This document shows positions 1-14,244 of a stretch of DNA of 14,244 bases, in pieces; the stretch's first letter is position 1; every line of letters starts with the position of its first letter. Made by a program: the position numbers and the translations under genes. Under the pieces are notes generated by a model. The model was not told the origin of the DNA and did no database searches. It was given only the letters and a program-made list of their open reading frames with translations. Source of the stretch: a bacterium (GTDB lineage: Bacteria; BMS3Abin14); contig JARGFV010000065.1 of the NCBI GenBank assembly GCA_029210545.1, forward strand, positions 1-14,244, written 5' to 3'.

Positions 1-29
1 TACCCGGACTTTGGCGATATTACAGTAGC

Positions 30-203
30 CTCCGTGAGGGAAGGGAAAACCACGCTTTCCCCTTCCCGTTGAGCCAAAGTCTCGCACAGACTTTGGTGAT
101 CTATCAGCAGTCATTGTAAGGAAAGGGAAAACGACACTTTTCCCTTTCCCCAGGACATTAATGAACCAGGAAAAGTCCCGATTGGACTTTTTGCGACCCT
201 GTC
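30..203. repeat. Hairpin-rich MITE-like element, copy R1 (tandem double form)
   Basis: This is a dispersed repeat without coding content, just downstream of the nifS stop. Two B-C units follow each other. The first has an imperfect purine hairpin (GGGAAGGGAAAA at 38-49 with its partner at 56-67) and a variant C hairpin, CCAAAGTCT at 74-82 pairing perfectly with AGACTTTGG at 88-96. The second has a perfect 12-bp hairpin (GGAAAGGGAAAA 120-131 with TTTTCCCTTTCC 138-149) and the standard C hairpin, AAAAGTCC 171-178 with GGACTTTTT 184-192, ending GCGACCCTGTC. A further fragment resembling the C end (GGACTTTGGCGA) lies at about 7-18, so the array may continue to the left. The GC-palindrome module seen in R2 and R3 is absent here. 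Confidence 0.7.
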
Positions 204-1840: not shown

Positions 1841-1865
1841 CCCGGATCCTCCACTATTGATAGGG

Positions 1866-2014
1866 TCGCAAAAAGTCCAGGCGGGATTTTTCGCTCCACG
1901 GAAAGGGAAAAGCGTCGTTTTCCCTTTCCTTACAAATAAATGACTTACGGTGCACGTCATTGATTTGGGCGCCCCGCGCGGGGCGCGTTGATGACTTTTT
2001 GCGAAGTCATCAAC
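1866..2014. repeat. MITE-like hairpin element, copy R2 (inverted relative to R3)
   Basis: The element lies between cysE and the Rrf2 gene. Its ends are perfect 12-bp inverted repeats, TCGCAAAAAGTC at 1866-1877 and GACTTTTTGCGA at 1993-2004. Inside, in plus order, are the C module; a perfect 12-bp purine hairpin (GGAAAGGGAAAA 1900-1911 with TTTTCCCTTTCC 1918-1929); about 27 bases of unique sequence; and module A (1957-2004). Module A holds an 18-bp perfect palindrome, GCGCCCCGCGCGGGGCGC (1969-1986). The right end folds again: GTTGATGACT 1987-1996 with AGTCATCAAC 2005-2014. Module A is identical over 48 bp to 9276-9323 on the other strand. The left end is only 26 bases from the Rrf2 start codon. 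Confidence 0.8.
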
Positions 2015-2026
2015 TTTAACAGCTTG

Positions 2027-2830
2027 TCAATCTGTCTTATCGGCCTTTTCCCCGGCATCCTCTGATTTACCCTTTTTTTCCCCGGCATCGTAATCCTTCG
2101 CGGCCTCTTCGATGGTTTTCTTGACGATGCCTTCGAGCCTGCAGCGAAGGTTTTCGAACTGGACCTGATCCTGTTCTTCGTCCTGATCATGTCTCTGGGC
2201 AAGCTCGTTGACCCTTTTGTTCATGAGCTGAAGCTGGTCCATCATGCAGTTGAAAGCCTGGGCCACCGGATCGGGCATGACCTGGTGGTTCAGGTCCACC
2301 TCGTCGACTTTCCTGCCTTCCTTGATCACGATCCGTCCCGGGATGCCCACCACCGTGGAGTTCGGGGGAACCTCCTTGACGACGACCGAGTTGGAGCCGA
2401 TCCGGCTGTTTTCACCCACCTCGAACGGTCCAAGCACCTTGGCCCCCGCCCCCACCACCACGTTGTCACGGAGGGTGGGGTGCCTTTTTTCCTTCTTGAG
2501 GCTCACGCCTCCCAGCGTAACCCCCTGGTACAGGGTGACGTTGTCGCCGATCTCGGTGGTCTCGCCGATGACAACACCCATGCCGTGATCGATGAAAAAA
2601 CCCTTCCCCACCCTGACCGCCGGGTGGATCTCGATGCCCGTGAGCATGCGGGAAATGTGGGAGGTGAGCCTGGCCAGGAACTTGAGTTTCCAGCCCCAGA
2701 GCCGGTGGGCGATACGGTGAAAAAAGAGGGCGTGGAACCCCGGATAGCTGAAAATAACATCCAGGGAACTCCGGCAGGCCGGGTCCCTCTCCTTGACCGT
2801 TCTGATATCCGCTCTGATCTTATCAAACAT
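2027..2830 (-). CDS. cysE: Serine O-acetyltransferase, short form with charged C-terminal tail
   Basis: It transfers acetyl from acetyl-CoA to L-serine, giving O-acetylserine for cysteine synthesis in the cytoplasm. The left-handed beta-helix hexapeptide repeats are clear from about residue 66 to 170. Landmarks are IEIHPAV (66-72), [15 protein letters not shown] (78-92) with the probable catalytic His82, YQGVTLGG (101-108), KRHPTLRDN (115-123) with His117, GAGAKVLG (127-134) and VVGIPGRIV (160-168). The N-terminal helical domain is short, as in the Bacillus-type enzymes. Residues about 190-267 form a helical, highly charged tail rich in Glu, Lys and Asp that is longer than usual and of unknown function. 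The ATG at 2830 gives the expected family start, but the ribosome binding site is weak. The gene heads the cysE-Rrf2-nifS group and has a good promoter upstream. Confidence 0.95.
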
Positions 2831-2866
2831 GGTTACAATTCCAGACTTGAGAGTTTGGTTGTTCGA

Positions 2867-2895
2867 AACTTAGCTTACCCAACGGATGTTGTCAA
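2867..2895 (-). promoter_or_regulatory. Sigma-70-type promoter of cysE
   Basis: On the minus strand a perfect -35 box TTGACA (2895-2890) is followed by a 17-base spacer and a weak -10 box TAAGTT (2872-2867). Transcription would begin about 30 bases upstream of the cysE ATG. The good -35 and weak -10 suit a regulated promoter. Confidence 0.6.
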
Positions 2896-2899
2896 CTAT
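2875..2899 (-). promoter_or_regulatory. Candidate IscR/Rrf2 type-1-like operator overlapping the cysE promoter
   Basis: Read on the minus strand, this 25-base stretch starts ATAGTTGAC and ends GTTGGGTAA. The E. coli IscR type-1 consensus is also 25 bases, with half-sites ATASYYGAC and GTCRRSTAT. By my count 20 of 25 positions agree: the left half-site matches fully and the right at seven of nine. It covers the -35 box and most of the spacer, a typical repressor position, and an IscR-like gene lies in the same group. Part of the left half is shared with the -35 box, so some of the match would occur anyway. Confidence 0.5.
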
Positions 2900-2951
2900 T
2901 GAAGCGCAGCAGGGTGGCTGAATCCTGGACAAAGAACAAAAAACGAAGATG

Positions 2952-3011
2952 AACCCGCACTTCTCACCAGCCTTCCGCTGCGGCGGCGGATACGGGTGAG
3001 AAATGTGGGTT
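2952..3011. repeat. Large compound inverted repeat, probable terminator after the HhH gene
   Basis: A 17-base left arm (2952-2968, AACCCGCACTTCTCACC) pairs with 2995-3011 with only two mismatches. The loop folds again, TCCGC 2974-2978 with GCGGA 2986-2990. Outside the arms, CGAAG-type sequence on both sides may lengthen the stem. On the minus strand the structure begins about 42 bases after the helix-hairpin-helix gene stop and is followed by CTTCGTTTTTTG, so it could end transcription. The GC-rich inner hairpin in a long outer stem also resembles REP-type or MITE-type repeats. It shares no obvious sequence with elements R1-R4. Confidence 0.6.
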
Positions 3012-3052
3012 AAGCTCCTTCTTCGTGCTTTGATCATCGAGCTTCGCGCCGG

Positions 3053-3595
3053 CTACTGGAGCGCCAATTCTCTTTTGAGCGCCTCCAGTTTCTTCGGGCC
3101 GATGCCGGGAACGGCGTCCAGCTGTTCCACGGATTCCAGGTATCCTCTGTTTTGGACGAATCGGTGGATCTTGCGGGCCAGAACCGGCCCGATGCCGCCG
3201 ATCCTTTCCAGGTCCTCCGGTGCGCACTTTGAAAGCTCCATGGGGATGCGCCACACGTGCCTTTCCGACTGGCTCATGGGGCGGACACTCCAGCCGCCAT
3301 CGGTTTTGAAAAGGACTCCGGCCCGGGGAAGGCAAAAACCGGACCCGAGCGTGTCCAGACGAAGTTTCAGTTGCCGGATCGCCCCGCCTGTGGTGGTCCC
3401 GGCGGGGAACGCCGCCAGAGCCCTGTCTTTCAGGGCGCTCGCGTCCAGAAGATATCCCTGGGACGGCCATTTTTCGGGGAATCGTGCGAGGTCAGGATAG
3501 ATGGGCCTGTTGAAGTACAGCCATACCTGTCCGGCAATGAGGATGAAGAGAAACAGGAGAAGGGTTATGCGTGCCTGGCGCTTGTCAAAGTTCAT
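3053..3595 (-). CDS. Membrane-anchored ComEA-like helix-hairpin-helix protein
   Basis: The 180-residue protein has one N-terminal membrane segment (about 9-28, TLLLFLFILIAGQVWLYF), a middle part of about 95 residues that I do not recognise, and a C-terminal double helix-hairpin-helix domain (about 126-176). The two hairpins are visible as LERIGGIGPVLARKI and LDAVPGIGPKKLEAL, the pattern of ComEA, which binds double-stranded DNA without sequence preference during uptake. The topology (anchor inside, domain in the periplasm) also fits ComEA, but the middle insert makes this longer than a minimal ComEA, so a competence role is only inferred. I preferred the ATG at 3595 because it puts the membrane helix at the usual place. 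A GTG at 3634 would add 13 residues; neither start has a clear ribosome binding site. The gene follows the glycosyltransferase after 153 bases with nothing notable between them. Confidence 0.8.
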   Translation of the reverse strand: MNFDKRQARITLLLFLFILIAGQVWLYFNRPIYPDLARFPEKWPSQGYLLDASALKDRALAAFPAGTTTGGAIRQLKLRLDTLGSGFCLPRAGVLFKTDGGWSVRPMSQSERHVWRIPMELSKCAPEDLERIGGIGPVLARKIHRFVQNRGYLESVEQLDAVPGIGPKKLEALKRELALQ

Positions 3596-3748
3596 GACTG
3601 GCAAGGTGCAAGTTTGTTGCCAGCCATAGGGCACAGGTCTGAGGACGTGAGGCGCAGTTGGAGTTCACAGCTCACTGCTGGTTGCTATGTGGCCTGGCAA
3701 GTCGATGTATCTTTATCTCAGTGGGAAGCAAACAGAAAAGTGCCGACA

Positions 3749-5446
3749 TCAGGACTCATCCCCAACCGTTGCGGCATCTCCGTTGATCTTAACTTTGTAG
3801 CTTCTGAAAAAGCCCCGAGCGATCAGATCGTCAATTCGTTCATGCTTTTGGAGATAAATAGCGACCAATTTTTTCTTAGTTGTAACCGGGATTTCAATGA
3901 TGTCCACGACGGACGGAAGTTGGCGAACGTTCTCCTTCTCATTGAATACGCTCCACAAAATGGCTTTATAAACGTATGTGGGAAAGGTTGCCATAAAGCT
4001 GCTGGGATCCGGATGGCCAATTAGAATATGAACACCTTGTTCCATCAGGTAACTTAAGGGGGCGATCCGTTTATGGCCAGGGCCATTGGCGGGAGCATAA
4101 AGACCGTTCTGGGCGATCCACCTGTCACTTAAACCCATCATATCTATGGTTCTGAGGTTCGAATAGTAAGGAACAGCTCCAGCAGCCACTATAGCAATTG
4201 TCACAGGTTCTCCAGGAGCATCCGGAAGAAGCTGCCCCAGAACTTTCCCCGTGGATATCCATGCCATTCCTTCATCTGACAAATGAAGTTGGAGTTGCTT
4301 TGTAGACTCGATCAAGGGGTTTTCAGGACTGGCCCGGTGGGTTAACTGGTGATGAACCGATCCTGCCAGCACAAGGATGAGAACCAATCCCCTTATTGTC
4401 AAAGACCGGGATATTATCCAGGTCGCCCACACCAGGATTACTATGAATAGCGGGAGAACGGGGACCATGAACCGGTATTCCATGAAATCGCCGCCCACCC
4501 TGATTATATAGGCCGTCCACATTAAGCAGATCCAGGAAAGAACCCATATGATTTGCGGCACTAATCGGGGCTTTCGAAAAATCGCCACAATTATTAAGAG
4601 GAGGAGTGGGTAAAAAAAATACGAAACCAGGAAGGTGTGAACGTAGGAAAGTCCGTAAGCGGAGACGAGCTCGGAAGGGAACTTTATGTAGAAGGTGTTG
4701 GGCAAAATAGAACCGTAATAATTATATTTCCAGGCCAGCCATGAGATCGATATCAGAAAGAGGGGGCTTATAAGAGCAATGAAACCAGTCCATCGTTTTT
4801 CCGTGCGATACCTGATCAGCAGCCAGGCAATCCAGGTCAGGAGTAGAGCGGCAATGAGAGCAGAATCCATTCGGGTTAGAAAGGCCGCGCCAACGACTAG
4901 TGACAGCAACAGGAGTTTGCTGTTTCGAAGATCCCGACGCGCGGAAACTTCCGCCGCCAGCCACACGGAGAAAAGAAGGAGGAAGGTCTGGAGCATGGTC
5001 TCCAACCCTCCCGTGGCAAAGGCCCTGAAAGTGTAAAGCCCTCCCAGGGCCAGAACTCCTGCCACACCTGCCCACGGCTCGCCTGTCACCAGGGTAACCA
5101 GTTGGTACTGAGCAGCCAAAGCCATGGTGAACAGAAGAATGCCCAGCACCATGCTGAACAAAACCGGGTCCGCGCCCAGCCTGATCGGGACTGACATGAT
5201 CAGGACCCAAAGGAAGTTGGAATAACCTTCGACTGGCAATTCACCAGGGTTCCACACCAGACCGTGGCCGTGAACCAGGTTTGCCGCGTAGCGGAACGAT
5301 ATGAAAGCATCGTCCATGAAAAACCGCTGAGCCCAGGCTATGCCAACATAGAAAACCGTCAGCACCACTGCGGCAGCTCCCGCATGAGAACGATAATCGC
5401 CTGTCATGTTAATGCCTGTATCTGGAATGGGCATTTGGTCAGGCAC
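3749..5446 (-). CDS. GT-C polytopic glycosyltransferase, AftB-like family
   Basis: This is an integral membrane enzyme of about 565 residues, likely moving a sugar from a polyprenyl-phosphate donor to an acceptor on the periplasmic side. After a first membrane helix comes the acidic loop FMDDAFISFRYA, with Asp45-Asp46 as the expected catalytic pair. NPGELPVEGYSNFLW (66-80) follows, a pattern I know from AftB-like arabinofuranosyltransferases and related GT-C proteins. About eleven membrane helices fill the first 380 residues, and a soluble domain of about 180 residues ends the protein. I chose a GTG start at 5446 because AGGAGG lies eight bases upstream; a TTG at 5452 is too close to that site and an ATG at 5434 is too far. 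It starts 29 bases after the deacetylase stop, so it is probably in the redox operon. The substrate cannot be told; it need not be arabinose. Confidence 0.8.
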   Translation of the reverse strand: MPDQMPIPDTGINMTGDYRSHAGAAAVVLTVFYVGIAWAQRFFMDDAFISFRYAANLVHGHGLVWNPGELPVEGYSNFLWVLIMSVPIRLGADPVLFSMVLGILLFTMALAAQYQLVTLVTGEPWAGVAGVLALGGLYTFRAFATGGLETMLQTFLLLFSVWLAAEVSARRDLRNSKLLLLSLVVGAAFLTRMDSALIAALLLTWIAWLLIRYRTEKRWTGFIALISPLFLISISWLAWKYNYYGSILPNTFYIKFPSELVSAYGLSYVHTFLVSYFFYPLLLLIIVAIFRKPRLVPQIIWVLSWICLMWTAYIIRVGGDFMEYRFMVPVLPLFIVILVWATWIISRSLTIRGLVLILVLAGSVHHQLTHRASPENPLIESTKQLQLHLSDEGMAWISTGKVLGQLLPDAPGEPVTIAIVAAGAVPYYSNLRTIDMMGLSDRWIAQNGLYAPANGPGHKRIAPLSYLMEQGVHILIGHPDPSSFMATFPTYVYKAILWSVFNEKENVRQLPSVVDIIEIPVTTKKKLVAIYLQKHERIDDLIARGFFRSYKVKINGDAATVGDES

Positions 5447-5475
5447 TGGCAAACCCTCCTAATAATGTCTCATGC

Positions 5476-6600
5476 TTAGATCACCCCGAATTCACGCAGC
5501 GATTTAAGCGTCTGGTTGAGATGCCTGTGGGCCAGGACCTGGTCCGGGGGCGGGTCGGGTTTCGGATCCCTGATGGTCAGCTGGCCGATGCCGGTTGCCC
5601 CGTACTTCCTGCGTTCCTTAAGGTAGCTTTCAGGAAGTTCGTCGGGAACCTCCTGCCCGGTGAGGATCCCCCATGCCAGGGTCCAGGAACGGGCCACGGT
5701 GTCCATCTCGTAACCGCCCCCGCCGGAGACCATGATATCCCCGCTGTGGATCTCCAGGAGCCGCGCCAGGGCATGTTCCACCGACCTGGTCGTCAGCATG
5801 AGATGAGCGAGAGGGTCTCCCGTCATGGTGTCGACGCCAAGCTGAACGACCACCAGGTCCGGAGAGAAGGAACGAAGGAGGGGGGGCACGACCGCCTCGA
5901 ACGCGTCGATGAAGGTGGGATCGGACGATCCGGGGGACAGGGGGACGTTGACGCTGTAGCCGTACCCCTTCCCCTCCCCCAGTTCCCTTTCGTAGCCGGT
6001 GCCGGGGAACAGATGGTCGGGGGTCTCGTGAATGGAAACGGTCAGGACCTGGTCCGACCCGTAAAACGCCTCCTGGACTCCGTCTCCGTGATGGGCGTCG
6101 ATGTCCAGGTAAAGGGTTTTTCTACCCTTTTCCACCTGGTCGGCGATAGCCACGGCCAGGTCGTTCAGGTAGCAGAACCCGGCCGCCCTGGCGTGATGGG
6201 CATGATGGAAACCGCCCCCGGTGTGCATCGCTACGGAACAGTTACCCTCGGCGACCTCTGAAAGGGCCATGAGGCTCCCGCCGCACACCAGGAGGCTCCA
6301 GTCCCACACACCTGCGAAAATGGGGTTGTCCCCGAGACCAAGTCCCCATTTCAGGGCGCCGGGGAAATGTTCTCCCCCGTTGGCTGCCTCAAGGGCCTCG
6401 AGGTAACCTGCGGAATGGGTTCTCAGCAGGTGGTCCCGTGTGGCGGGAACCGGTTCGGCCTGCCTTACTGCCGGCCCGTCCAGAAAACCGCAGGCCTCCA
6501 TGAGGTAATGGGTCAGGTAAAGGCGGGTCGGCCTCAGCGGATGGTGGGGTCCGTAGCTGAAGGTGCGGTACAATGGTGAATAAACAAGAAGTTGATCCAT
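5476..6600 (-). CDS. Histone-deacetylase-family zinc hydrolase, AcuC-like
   Basis: A class-I HDAC-fold amidohydrolase of 374 residues, expected to remove acetyl groups from lysines or small amides in the cytoplasm. The active site is complete. The His132-His133 pair lies in GGGFHHAHHARAAGFCYLND. Zinc ligands are Asp168 and His170 in DIDAHHGDG, and Asp262 in TGDPL. The transition-state tyrosine Tyr297 is in GGGGY. The substrate entry segment YSPLYRTFSYGPHHPLRP is at 7-24. AcuC deacetylates acetyl-CoA synthetase in Bacillus, and acetylpolyamine amidohydrolases are the other close group. No acetyl-CoA synthetase or acetyltransferase is in the window. The ATG lies ten bases after the NrfD stop without a good ribosome binding site, so translational coupling is likely. 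Family assignment is firm; the substrate is not known. Confidence 0.9.
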   Translation of the reverse strand: MDQLLVYSPLYRTFSYGPHHPLRPTRLYLTHYLMEACGFLDGPAVRQAEPVPATRDHLLRTHSAGYLEALEAANGGEHFPGALKWGLGLGDNPIFAGVWDWSLLVCGGSLMALSEVAEGNCSVAMHTGGGFHHAHHARAAGFCYLNDLAVAIADQVEKGRKTLYLDIDAHHGDGVQEAFYGSDQVLTVSIHETPDHLFPGTGYERELGEGKGYGYSVNVPLSPGSSDPTFIDAFEAVVPPLLRSFSPDLVVVQLGVDTMTGDPLAHLMLTTRSVEHALARLLEIHSGDIMVSGGGGYEMDTVARSWTLAWGILTGQEVPDELPESYLKERRKYGATGIGQLTIRDPKPDPPPDQVLAHRHLNQTLKSLREFGVI

Positions 6601-6610
6601 GACCGGACGG

Positions 6611-7828
6611 TTATTCGCAGGACGGACCAGCTTCGGAGACAGACGGCTCTTTAAGGTTTCTGGTCTGCTCCTCCGAATACTTGAACATGGGCAGCATGTA
6701 TTCGGCCGCCAGGATGATCAGGAACGGGACGGCCATGATGAAGATGCCGACAAGGACCCCTTCTTTCTCGAACATCGCGGGATGGTACGATTCCCGAAGA
6801 CCGGACAGCGATTTGGAGATCATCTGCCCGCCGATAACCACGTTCCACCTCATGGCAAAAACCTGGATAAGGAGCAGTGTGGCGGCGATGAAAGACAGGG
6901 TGTTGGCGACCCTGTCGCCCATGCTCTTCCTCAACAGTACGATAATCCCGAGGAGCATCAGGGGAATAAGCGCACCTACGACGATCTGCAGCCCCATGTA
7001 GGAGAAACTCAAGGGGCCGGAAAGCAGTTCGTGGACGATCTCCCACTCCTCGGCTTTCTCGTAGGCCATGGAGATCTCGGCCAGGAGCTCCAGCGAGAAT
7101 GTAATGATGAGAAACATCCACAGCCAGCCGCACATGGTGTCGATGCAGTCCCTGTCGATGACGAACCCTTTCAGCTTCATGATGATCTGGTACATGACGA
7201 TGAGGGCGGCGATCCCGGAAACCACGGCCGAAAAGATGAAGATGATGGGCATGAGCGGGGTGGACCAGTAGGGGTTGGCCTTGACTCCACCGAAAAGGAA
7301 CCCGACGTATCCATGGAGCAGGAACGCTCCGGGGATACCGATGGCGGCGAGGAAGTTGGTGACCTTGTGGTCCACCTCCAGGGCCTCTTCCGAGATGTCG
7401 TAGACACCCAGAGTCAGGATCCTGTAGATCCGCTGTCTCCAGCCCCGCGTTCTCCTGGCGTAGGTCACGATATCTTTCCGAAAGACCAGCCAGACCTCCA
7501 GCAGGAGGATGAACAGGTAACCGGTGTAGAAGAACCCGAAACCGGCCATTGCCGACTGGAACTGGGGCGTGAGGATGACGTTCATGCCACGGATGGGATG
7601 CCCCAGGTGGTTGAGCAGGGGCCAGGTGGCGACAAGGAGGAACGCCAGGGATGCCATGAGGGCGAAACTGGCCACCGGCTTGAGCTGTTTGATCCCGAAC
7701 ACGTGATACAGGGACGAAACCACGAAAGCCCCGGCTACCAGCCCCGTAATGTAGGGGTATATGACGATCATCAGCGACCAGTGGATATGGAGGTCGTTGG
7801 GAAATACATAACCGACTGTCTCCAACAT
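6611..7828 (-). CDS. nrfD: NrfD/PsrC-family quinone-interacting membrane subunit
   Basis: A 405-residue integral membrane protein with about nine hydrophobic helices, of the NrfD/PsrC/HmcC type that exchanges electrons between the menaquinone pool and a periplasmic iron-sulfur partner. The opening HIHWSLMIVIYPYITGLVAG is typical of NrfD proteins in anaerobic respiratory complexes, and a cytoplasmic connecting region of about 35 residues follows the third helix. The ATG at 7828 overlaps the ferredoxin stop by one base (TGATG). It is preceded by AAGGAGGT, an ideal ribosome binding site six bases away, so the two are made together. The charged tail (about 380-405) is cytoplasmic or periplasmic depending on helix count. 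Whether it oxidises or reduces quinone cannot be told, because no catalytic molybdopterin subunit is nearby. Confidence 0.92.
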   Translation of the reverse strand: MLETVGYVFPNDLHIHWSLMIVIYPYITGLVAGAFVVSSLYHVFGIKQLKPVASFALMASLAFLLVATWPLLNHLGHPIRGMNVILTPQFQSAMAGFGFFYTGYLFILLLEVWLVFRKDIVTYARRTRGWRQRIYRILTLGVYDISEEALEVDHKVTNFLAAIGIPGAFLLHGYVGFLFGGVKANPYWSTPLMPIIFIFSAVVSGIAALIVMYQIIMKLKGFVIDRDCIDTMCGWLWMFLIITFSLELLAEISMAYEKAEEWEIVHELLSGPLSFSYMGLQIVVGALIPLMLLGIIVLLRKSMGDRVANTLSFIAATLLLIQVFAMRWNVVIGGQMISKSLSGLRESYHPAMFEKEGVLVGIFIMAVPFLIILAAEYMLPMFKYSEEQTRNLKEPSVSEAGPSCE

Positions 7829-8619
7829 CAGCGGACCTCCTTGTCAAGGCCGAGATAGTAGCATTTCGGTTTGGTGAGCAACTGGGGCTGAAGCATGCCG
7901 ACCCTCTCCTCTGCCAGGACCTTCGTGACCGGATCGTAGGGGTCGCGGATGTCGCCGAAACGCCTCGTGCCGGTGGGGCAGGCCTGCACGCAGGCCGGCT
8001 TGAGACCCTTCGTGATTCGCTGGTAGCACCAGGTGCACTTGTCCGCAACGTGGGTGACGGGGTTGATCCATCTGGCAGCATAGGGACATGCCTGGACGCA
8101 GTAGCCGCAAGCCATGCAGCGTTCCTTGTCCACCAGCATGACACCGTCCGGGCTCTTGAAGGATGCCCCGAAGGGACACACCTGGACACACGGCGCTTCA
8201 CTGCAATGGTTGCACATTTTCGGAACGAAATAGGCTTTGGAAACACCTGAAACCCCGGCCGTGGCAGCCGGAAAACCGTAAAGTCCCCCGTTGGGCGAAT
8301 CGATGTGGGCATGGTCCGATTCAGGTCCCTTCTGGTACCTCTCGACCCAGGTGCGGTAAAACCCCGTGGGCACCTTGTTCTCACGCCTGCACGCCTGGAC
8401 ACAGGAGCCGCAACCGATACACTTGTGCAGATCGATTATGTAGGAATAAAGGTGTTCCCTTGGGTTGTAGCCGGTCAGGTCCATTTCAGGCTGAACCGTG
8501 GTGCCGGCCAGTGCCCTTTTAACCCGTCCGGGAATGAGGCCGAAGGCGACCGCGGCGACGCTGCCGAGCAATGCGCCCGCCGTCGTTCGCAGGAAATTTC
8601 TTCTGCTCGTTTCTTTCAT
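7828..8619 (-). CDS. Tat-exported 4x[4Fe-4S] ferredoxin subunit, NrfC/PsrB/HmcB type
   Basis: A 263-residue periplasmic electron-transfer subunit. The N-terminus is a Tat signal, SRRNFLRTT followed by a hydrophobic stretch and a likely cleavage after ALA near residue 38. Sixteen cysteines form the four-cluster pattern of NrfC/PsrB/DmsB proteins: Cys67/70/73/77, Cys136/139/144/148, Cys168/171/174/178, and Cys195/198/210/214. The unusually spaced set CTWCYQRITKGLKPACVQAC is diagnostic of this family. I chose the ATG at 8619 because GAGGAG precedes it by about six bases and it places the twin arginine at residues 6-7; an upstream in-frame ATG at 8637 would add six residues. It lies 45 bases after the tetraheme cytochrome and overlaps nrfD. 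It presumably carries electrons between the cytochrome hemes and NrfD. Confidence 0.94.
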   Translation of the reverse strand: MKETSRRNFLRTTAGALLGSVAAVAFGLIPGRVKRALAGTTVQPEMDLTGYNPREHLYSYIIDLHKCIGCGSCVQACRRENKVPTGFYRTWVERYQKGPESDHAHIDSPNGGLYGFPAATAGVSGVSKAYFVPKMCNHCSEAPCVQVCPFGASFKSPDGVMLVDKERCMACGYCVQACPYAARWINPVTHVADKCTWCYQRITKGLKPACVQACPTGTRRFGDIRDPYDPVTKVLAEERVGMLQPQLLTKPKCYYLGLDKEVR

Positions 8620-8664
8620 GGTGACTCCTCGCATCATAATCTCAAGATCTCCAGGTGATTCTGA

Positions 8665-9183
8665 CTACATGGAAGGATCGTGGGGATCATGACAGTCCAG
8701 GCACACATTCGGCGAATTTTCAACGTCCATTTCCGCCAGATGTTCGACGATACGCACCTGCGGGAAATGATCGGGTTTCGCCGGCTGGGCTTCGTGACAG
8801 CGGATACAGAGATCTTTGGCCTGCTGGATCTCCATCTCTTCAGACCACTCGTATTTCCCAGGGTTCGCCATGAAATCCTCGATCTTCTCGAAATGAACAT
8901 GGCTGTTGAGAGGACCGTGGCAGGTTTCGCAGTTGATGCTTGCGTGTGCGGTCTCCAGGAATTCGCTCACCCTGTCCTCATGGCAACTGGCGCACGATTC
9001 GGCACCCGCTCCATGCTGGACCTGAAGGGCTTTCTCCTCCCGCAATGCATCGCCCCGATAGGGACCGTACTTCCCGAAGGTCGGATAGAGGGCCTGAACA
9101 ATGACCACCCTCCCGACGATGTACAAGGCGATGACAATGACGATGATGAGAACCGCTCGCCAGAGATGTTTGGTGTGTTCCAT
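8665..9183 (-). CDS. Membrane-anchored tetraheme cytochrome c
   Basis: A 172-residue cytochrome with an uncleaved-looking N-terminal helix (about 8-30, WRAVLIIVIVIALYIVGRVVIV) and a periplasmic domain with four CXXCH heme sites: Cys64 (CASCH), Cys85 (CETCH), Cys126 (CIRCH) and Cys161 (CLDCH). Other histidines (for example His80, His95, His97, His139, His148, His168) could be distal ligands. It does not look like classic cytochrome c3, which is soluble and shows CXXXXCH sites, nor clearly like NrfH. The ATG has GAGAGG eight bases upstream and a hairpin in the leader just beyond. It is the first gene of the operon with the ferredoxin and NrfD, so it probably passes electrons between that module and a soluble partner. 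No exact family name can be given. Confidence 0.9.
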   Translation of the reverse strand: MEHTKHLWRAVLIIVIVIALYIVGRVVIVQALYPTFGKYGPYRGDALREEKALQVQHGAGAESCASCHEDRVSEFLETAHASINCETCHGPLNSHVHFEKIEDFMANPGKYEWSEEMEIQQAKDLCIRCHEAQPAKPDHFPQVRIVEHLAEMDVENSPNVCLDCHDPHDPSM

Positions 9184-9200
9184 AATGAGTACCTCTCACC

Positions 9201-9230
9201 GCAGCGTTTCGGGGAACCTCGTTACGCTGC
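9201..9230 (-). promoter_or_regulatory. Hairpin in the leader of the tetraheme cytochrome gene
   Basis: GCAGCGT at 9201-9207 pairs perfectly with ACGCTGC at 9224-9230. Inside, CGGGG and CCTCG can pair further with a G-U step. The structure ends 17 bases before the start codon, just upstream of the GAGAGG ribosome binding site. It could modulate mRNA stability or translation of the redox operon, but it matches no riboswitch family I know. Confidence 0.4.
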
Positions 9231-9275
9231 CGGCTGGTTTGTCGGAAGGCGCATTTTCCCGTAACTTTGATTGCG

Positions 9276-9449
9276 TCGCAAAAAGTCATCAACGCGCCCC
9301 GCGCGGGGCGCCCAAATCAATGAATAGCCGCACATGGGAAGGGCGCCCGGATCAGTGACTGAAATACAGGCCACTGATCCGTGAGGGAAGGGGAAACCAC
9401 GCTTTTCCCTTTCCGTGAAGCGAAAAGTCCCGGATTGGACTTTTTGCGA
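9276..9449. repeat. MITE-like hairpin element, copy R3 (longest single copy)
   Basis: A 174-bp element between the 97-residue protein gene and the tetraheme cytochrome gene. Its ends are perfect 12-bp inverted repeats, TCGCAAAAAGTC (9276-9287) and GACTTTTTGCGA (9438-9449). In plus order it holds module A (9276-9323, with the 18-bp palindrome at 9294-9311); a private hairpin, GGATCAGTG 9349-9357 with CACTGATCC 9372-9380; the purine hairpin (9385-9396 with 9403-9414, slightly imperfect); and the C hairpin (GAAAAGTCC with GGACTTTTT). Module A is identical over 48 bp to the inverse of 1957-2004. The right end is eight bases from the stop codon of the 97-residue protein gene and may act as its terminator. 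Confidence 0.8.
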
Positions 9450-9457
9450 CTCTATCA

Positions 9458-9836: not shown

Positions 9837-9880
9837 TTGATGACTTCGCAAAAGACCAGGCGGGACTTATCGCGACCCTG
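9837..9880. repeat. Short, degenerate copy R4 of the MITE-like element
   Basis: This 44-bp remnant begins TTGATGACTTCGCAAAAG, matching the outer end of R2 (inverse of about 1997-2013). It continues CCAGGCGGGA and ends TCGCGACCCTG, matching the C end of R1 and R2. The purine hairpin and GC palindrome are missing, as if the two ends had been joined by an internal deletion. It lies 65 bases after the stop of the DUF2339-like gene. Confidence 0.55.
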
Positions 9881-9945
9881 CTTGTTACCTGTCAGTGATA
9901 TCCGAACCAGCCGAACGGTATGACCGTAATTTTTCACCGGTTATA

Positions 9946-13886: not shown

Positions 13887-14244
13887 TAAGTGGTCTCCCT
13901 GCGGATTTGTTCCATTGTTCACAAAAGACTCTTTCCATTGCACTTACGTAACTGCTTCATTTCGCACAATAATCCATGTTCGTCAAGCATCTACTGTGTA
14001 CCTTGTTTGCGAAGTTATTCACATATAAAAAACCACCAGGTTTAGCCGGTAGTTTTTTATATCTCGTTCATTCAAAACTGAATTTCAATATCAGCAATCC
14101 TGTCTACCAGAACGGTCAAAGACCCGCCTCTTCCCCTTTTCCTCTCCCCCGGTGTCAGAGCACTTTGGCAATGACTTTGCATTCCTTCATGCATGGGACG
14201 TCCACTGAGGGTCATTCAGAACATCTACCCCTACCACCTGGTCT
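13887..14244. other. Upstream region of the 13-heme cytochrome gene without a supported gene
   Basis: This stretch of 358 bases holds the leader of the cytochrome gene and a terminator-like hairpin (annotated separately). I see a TTGACG on the minus strand near 13985 but no convincing -10 box. There is also a small inverted repeat TTGT-TC-ACAA near 13915 that is too common to call an operator. I checked for a GEMM-type (c-di-GMP or cGAMP) riboswitch, because such elements precede cytochrome genes in Geobacter, and found none. Beyond 14063 there are only short open frames on both strands, none with clear coding signals. Confidence 0.5.
14023..14062. terminator. Bidirectional terminator-like hairpin upstream of the cytochrome gene
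   Basis: Fifteen bases at 14023-14037 (ATATAAAAAACCACC) pair with 14048-14062 with a single mismatch, leaving a ten-base loop. The outer stem is A-run against T-run, so either strand gives a hairpin flanked by U residues. It would insulate the cytochrome gene from whatever lies beyond the window on the right. Its inner stem is short, so its efficiency is uncertain. Confidence 0.65.

Follow-up and report, generated by a model that had tools for sequence, protein, structure and literature searches.

A new family of non-autonomous DNA transposons (MITEs) built of hairpin modules in an uncultivated bacterial lineage

Hairpin repeats in the window and their copies elsewhere

Four hairpin-forming repeats (R1 to R4) lie scattered over the 14,244 nt of DNA analyzed here (the window), which is the entire contig C65 of a 2.72-Mb BMS3Abin14 genome in 241 contigs. 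Two of them share an identical 48-bp core in opposite orientations, raising the question of what kind of element they are and how they spread. An earlier note, made from the sequence alone, had proposed a miniature transposon (MITE) or a composite REP-like family. The arms, purine hairpin and GC palindrome of R2 and R3 are present where it placed them, and both repeats hold as elements, although it drew their limits a few bases too short (correct, 1859-2011 and 9269-9456). Its "variant" R1 is a truncated long modular copy, partial because the window is a complete contig whose start cuts it, and its "remnant" R4 looks like a decayed copy of the two ends. The features are as follows.

1..203, plus strand: R1, right-hand portion of a long modular copy that the contig start truncates on its left; a pair of purine hairpins with 82-nt spacing, a CCAAAGTC..GACTTTGG hairpin, the right cap and a terminal repeat (185-203)
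1853..1858: R2 flank ACTATT in the target-duplication position, decayed (partner AACTTT at 2012-2017)
1859..2011, minus strand: R2, complete standard element of ~154 nt, left end toward 2011 (covariance model, 168.6 bits; arms)
1859..1877: R2 right terminal inverted repeat GATAGGGTCGCAAAAAGTC (from the sequence)
1868..1894: R2 right cap hairpin (H5; from alignment A1 and its pairs)
1900..1929: R2 purine hairpin (H4)
1935..1967: R2 middle hairpin (H3)
1969..1986: R2 GC palindrome hairpin (H2)
1988..2013: R2 left cap hairpin (H1), which includes arm GACTTTTTGCGAAGTCATC
9267..9292: R3 left cap hairpin, with the left terminal inverted repeat (9269-9287) inside
9269..9456, plus strand: R3, complete element of 188 nt with one extra middle module (covariance model, 140.1 bits)
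9294..9311: R3 GC palindrome hairpin
9349..9380: R3 middle hairpin GGATCAGTGACTG...CACTGATCC
9385..9414: R3 purine hairpin
9420..9456: R3 right cap hairpin, with the right terminal inverted repeat at 9438-9456
9839..9883 (approximate): R4, degenerate "ends only" copy of ~45 nt, both terminal repeats folded as a single hairpin

R2 sits in a leftward gene row, with cysE on one side and a gene for an Rrf2-type regulator on the other, and R3 lies upstream of a multihaem cytochrome gene. R4 resembles a 45/46-nt class of copies consisting of the two ends alone (n = 8 in a 1.1-Mb sample).

R2 and R3 are not alone in the genome: a search for further copies recovered 376 exact occurrences of the end motif TCGCAAAAAGTC in 2.72 Mb (reversed control, 0). 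The sampled DNA gave 61 complete copies (40 to 650 nt) in this genome (1.11 Mb read) and 30 in the relative G003 (0.8 Mb read). Complete copies contain no gene, have a modal length of 153 to 155 nt and occupy ~0.9% of the sampled genome. Arms were found within 200 nt of 24 of the 51 contig ends sampled, compared to 2.2% of interior windows, and the family therefore accounts for much of the fragmentation of this assembly. Both arm and element are present in 11 of the 12 genomes of the taxonomic family. Outside it, 374 genomes were almost uniformly near background for the arm, the few exceptions having 4 to 10 copies. A covariance model built from the 61 copies and run on the family genomes plus 133 outside genomes matched the same 11 family members and only one of the 133 (G103; single match, 2.4e-8). 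Rfam gave no match in the window, and a literature search for the arm sequence returned nothing related.

The 48-bp identity that first drew attention to the pair is real (1957-2004 is the exact reverse complement of 9276-9323), and the earlier note took it as a sign of recent movement or gene conversion. However, 1.1 Mb of the genome contains 14 exact occurrences of this 48-mer, 12 of which lie beyond the window, so the identity reflects the family's common left-end sequence. R2 and R3 also differ elsewhere in their number of modules, and the flank pairs of both have decayed to matches at three of six bases. Recent gene conversion, or one copy moving directly into the other's place, would account for two exactly identical stretches in opposite orientation; given these observations, we regard either event as exceedingly improbable.

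Target duplications, empty sites and the mode of spread

The terminal inverted repeats are imperfect and ~18 bp long (GATGGACTCGCAAAAAGTC / GATAGGGTCGCAAAAAGTC). Taking GAT...ATC as the element limits and mismatched flank pairs as the expectation, we looked for target-site duplications and found identical 6-bp flanks at 23 of the 61 copies (1.05 expected) and at 16 of 30 in G003 (0.93 expected). Flank matches at 4 or 5 bp were not in excess over expectation, and we therefore set the duplication at 6 bp. Its consensus is AANNTT, and it flanks the younger copies. A run with other element limits suggested 7 bp; the difference is a single G, either the element's own or a target preference.

Comparison of orthologous loci revealed empty sites for both complete copies of the window. 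Three relatives, G001 (taken as CP070719), G002 and G009, have no element at the R2 site between cysE and the Rrf2-type gene, and G009 carries the family elsewhere. The R3 site is empty in three relatives, whereas the corresponding spacer of bin582 (CP070698) contains a degenerate copy in the same orientation. The nearest match to the NrfD protein here is that of SZUA-204, a genome without an element at the R3 site, so the copy in bin582 either inserted independently or is old and has been lost from other genomes. At C11:14877-15031, a fresh copy with a perfect AAATTT duplication adjoins or interrupts an older, degenerate element. G003 has the older element unbroken at the orthologous place; the fresh copy is a nested insertion.

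The repeats are one new and well-supported family of non-autonomous DNA transposons. Support for the MITE reading comes from the terminal inverted repeats, the 6-bp duplications, the empty sites, the nested insertion and a transposase gene that carries the family's ends (described below). The composite REP-like reading fared differently. On that reading, the family would be a REP/BIME-type set of hairpins mobilized as single strands by a Y1 (RAYT) transposase, and the elements are hairpins in a genome with two Y1 transposase genes (L031 and L032); a further such gene starts at the end of the window. However, the copies make 6-bp target duplications, and Y1 enzymes are not known to do so. The Y1 genes are also little linked to the arms (none near L031 and one element ~0.8 kb from L032), whereas an IS1182-like gene carries the family's ends. 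The REP-like mechanism is therefore unsupported, and spread by a Y1 enzyme seems to us very improbable.

A candidate transposase with the family's ends

Searching the sampled DNA for arm-to-arm units of 0.6 to 4 kb yielded five candidates, one of which holds a transposase gene (C1:15757-17422, 520 aa); the earlier note had suggested looking for such a gene bounded by the same arms. The protein has the Pfam domains DUF772 and DDE_Tnp_1, and its best NCBIfam match is IS1182 (NF033551; 1.6e-33, with 116 bits against a cut-off of 270). The unit ends in GATGGACCCGCAATTAGTC and GACGGCATCGCAAAAAGT; at the 5' end of its homologues in G009 and G007, the sequences are GACGGACTCGCAAAAAGT and GATGGCTTCGCAAAAAGT. 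These ends match GATGGACTCGCAAAAAGT at 15 to 17 of 18 positions. Ends common to the element and the IS1182-like gene occur in three genomes, although every gene copy found was damaged or partial. No other DUF772 locus in the taxonomic family had arms bounding a transposase gene at both ends, and G001 has no arms and neither transposase (IS1182-like or other DUF772).

Relative to the G007 copy, the C1:15757-17422 gene is missing an internal stretch with the motif RFRAGVEATMS, which the broken G007 copy retains. We take this motif to hold the third catalytic residue (glutamate) of the DDE triad, and the triad is accordingly predicted to be incomplete in the C1 copy. The flanks of this unit (AACCTT and AATATT) do not form a clean duplication. 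An intact transposase with the family's ends was not found in the genomes examined, and the assembly of G003, with 226 arms and fresh duplications, contains no close homologue of the gene. From the shared ends, we infer that an IS1182-type transposase likely moved the elements.

The explanation as a whole, a MITE family with an IS1182-type mover and a modular hairpin interior, is in our judgment highly probable. An IS1182-type DDE transposase would have bound the ends shared with the element, excised or copied the element, and inserted it at AT-rich sites through a staggered cut of 6 bp. Movement in this genome is probably over, because the transposase gene is without the part carrying the third catalytic residue, or else it may depend on a transposase copy absent from the assembly. 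Independent hairpin modules follow one another in the interior, and their number rises and falls by tandem duplication and deletion. The pairing within the hairpins is probably maintained by repair of imperfect palindromes at replication, by selection, or by both; in the selection variant, a compact fold would make insertion into transcribed spacers tolerable. Counting against this explanation are the lack of an intact transposase, the sub-cut-off IS1182 score, the unclean flanks of the insertion sequence and the decayed duplications of R2 and R3.

Maintained hairpins and comparison with known elements

The modal copy (153 to 155 nt) consists of five hairpins: left cap, GC palindrome, middle, purine and right cap. 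Longer copies, up to 564 nt, have extra middle hairpins and tandem purine-hairpin units of ~82 nt, and the 45/46-nt class has the two ends alone. In the alignment of 61 copies, 97.8% of pair cells were standard pairs, compared to 36 to 55% in slid controls. Pairs changed on both sides numbered 12 of 46 (5.2 in shuffles), and cells changed on both sides numbered 66 (14.6 in shuffles). The shuffle control ignores relatedness, and related copies can exceed it; these excesses therefore indicate that pairing is maintained and leave the cause aside. Judging from the alignments, compensatory changes have preserved the hairpins across genera. Repair of palindromes by template switching would produce the same compensatory changes without any RNA function. 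The maintained pairing of the five hairpins poses a testable question, palindrome repair versus RNA function.

A selected RNA strand should show more G-U than A-C combinations. In alignment A1, G-U exceeded A-C by 33 to 17 cells (three awkward pairs left out), and in a larger set the left-to-right strand had 67 G-U and 41 A-C pair-by-genome combinations. This modest excess may be a weak hint of RNA-level pairing, too weak for a decision. Together with the conservation of five hairpins over genera, it is what would favor reading the elements as selected structured RNA genes or mRNA elements (acting in stability, processing or attenuation), with spread being secondary.

By rough gene calls, 13 of the 61 copies fell inside predicted frames, of which many are probably spurious and run through the element. 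The other copies lay between genes, in either orientation, in a sample of which 89% was called coding, and showed no clear bias toward convergent, divergent or tandem neighbors. Several results speak against an RNA role. There was no orientation rule relative to genes in this genome (10 same and 12 opposite in tandem contexts). Scans for promoter- or terminator-like sites at R2 and R3 were negative, presence at the same site differs among relatives, Rfam gave no match in the window, and the shuffle control leaves in the relatedness that can inflate compensatory counts. We therefore consider it improbable that the elements are primarily RNA genes or mRNA elements.

A narrower idea keeps the transposable element and adds selection on its interior: selection would act on the hairpin chain itself, as a folded RNA of the left-to-right strand, the element carrying a conserved set of hairpin modules family-wide. 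We think this unlikely; if true, hosts or the element would use the RNA modules, e.g., to control transcript processing around the insertion.

Returning to the MITE family, its closest parallel in organization is the BOX elements of Streptococcus pneumoniae, which are 67 to 637 bp long and number more than 100 copies in a ~2-Mb genome (PMC3049150). BOX elements have terminal inverted repeats, target duplications, a folded structure and nesting of repeats, and an insertion sequence with similar ends, ISSpn2, has been proposed as their mover (PMC3049150). The elements described here share terminal repeats, duplications, folding, high copy number, nesting and a suspected insertion sequence as mover. 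As in BOX, the end modules are fixed and unlike each other, and the number of tandem middle modules between them varies; lengths here are ~45 to 564 nt. Apart from their apparently different sequences, the elements differ from BOX in their likely mover (an IS1182-like gene rather than ISSpn2), in having several kinds of hairpin module and in their compensatory pairing changes across genera. The likeness is one of organization, and we claim no common descent.

The Chunjie MITE of Geobacter uraniireducens is 178 to 235 bp long, with terminal and direct repeats, and is present in dozens of copies plus partial ones; it also occurs inserted in an operon (PMC10969869). By description it is similar in being a MITE with terminal and direct repeats and many full and partial copies, but the modular hairpin array seen here does not feature in the review's description of Chunjie (PMC10969869). 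Palindromes serve as targets for some IS1182-family members, and IS1272 replaces target stem-loops without duplication (PMC5678879). Our candidate resembles this family in transposase type (DUF772 plus DDE domains and the best NCBIfam match), a likeness at the level of the protein; unlike IS1272, the elements here make 6-bp duplications. The MITE family is new, and its kind of element and organization are already known. As a MITE of modular hairpins from an uncultivated lineage, it is well resolved, with duplications, empty sites, nesting and a likely source transposase.

Related ends also occur around other interiors. Viral contigs scanned with the terminal repeat gave 14 stretches, mostly coding coincidences, but four of them (L213-L216) show repeats that have the same left end with another core; no transposase with the family's ends was seen at these viral repeats. 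A search with a 20-nt end pattern in the phylum of G370 gave few matches. In the genome studied here, a different core lies between the same ends (L024:1722-1835). The same end motif is thus present with other cores in other lineages, and a wider set of repeats may share this mover.

Element repeats at contig ends and in tandem

In the genome under study (G000), the exact end motif of the element (the arm) lay within 200 nt of 24 of the 51 contig ends sampled, compared with 2.2% of interior windows. Examples of arms near contig ends are as follows:

C2:57-68, arm
C4:50-61, arm
C5:56-67, arm

The assembly of G000 is broken by element repeats, and its element copy counts are therefore lower bounds. 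One locus (L196; G000:C6:3909-4240), partly masked as N, carries a row of three element ends spaced approximately 160 nt apart. This array is the whole element copied in tandem.

The R3 spacer in relatives

The intergenic spacer that holds the complete element R3 is occupied in the relative bin582 (CP070698), whereas it is empty in three other relatives. The bin582 copy (L061:8559-8616) is degenerate and shares the orientation of R3.

End motif beyond the element family

Within G000, repeats at L024:1722-1835 and L197 (at 378) have the ends of the element around a different core, so several MITE families may have common ends. Short repeats starting with TGATGGCTTCGCAAAAAGTCC or close variants were also seen in other lineages, at loci of G370 and G103 (L183-L195) and in viral contigs (L213-L216), with cores that differ from that of the element. 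The end motif extends beyond this MITE family. G103, which is outside the taxonomic family, also yielded one match to the element covariance model (2.4e-8), which may reflect either transfer or chance resemblance.

Y1 transposase gene start at the window end

The window ends within the following feature:

14191-14244, Y1 (RAYT-like) transposase gene, of which only the start (MGRPLRVIQNIYPYHLV) precedes the contig end

This start is nearly identical to that of the Y1 gene in L032, and CGGTGTCAGAG-type repeats lie upstream of both.
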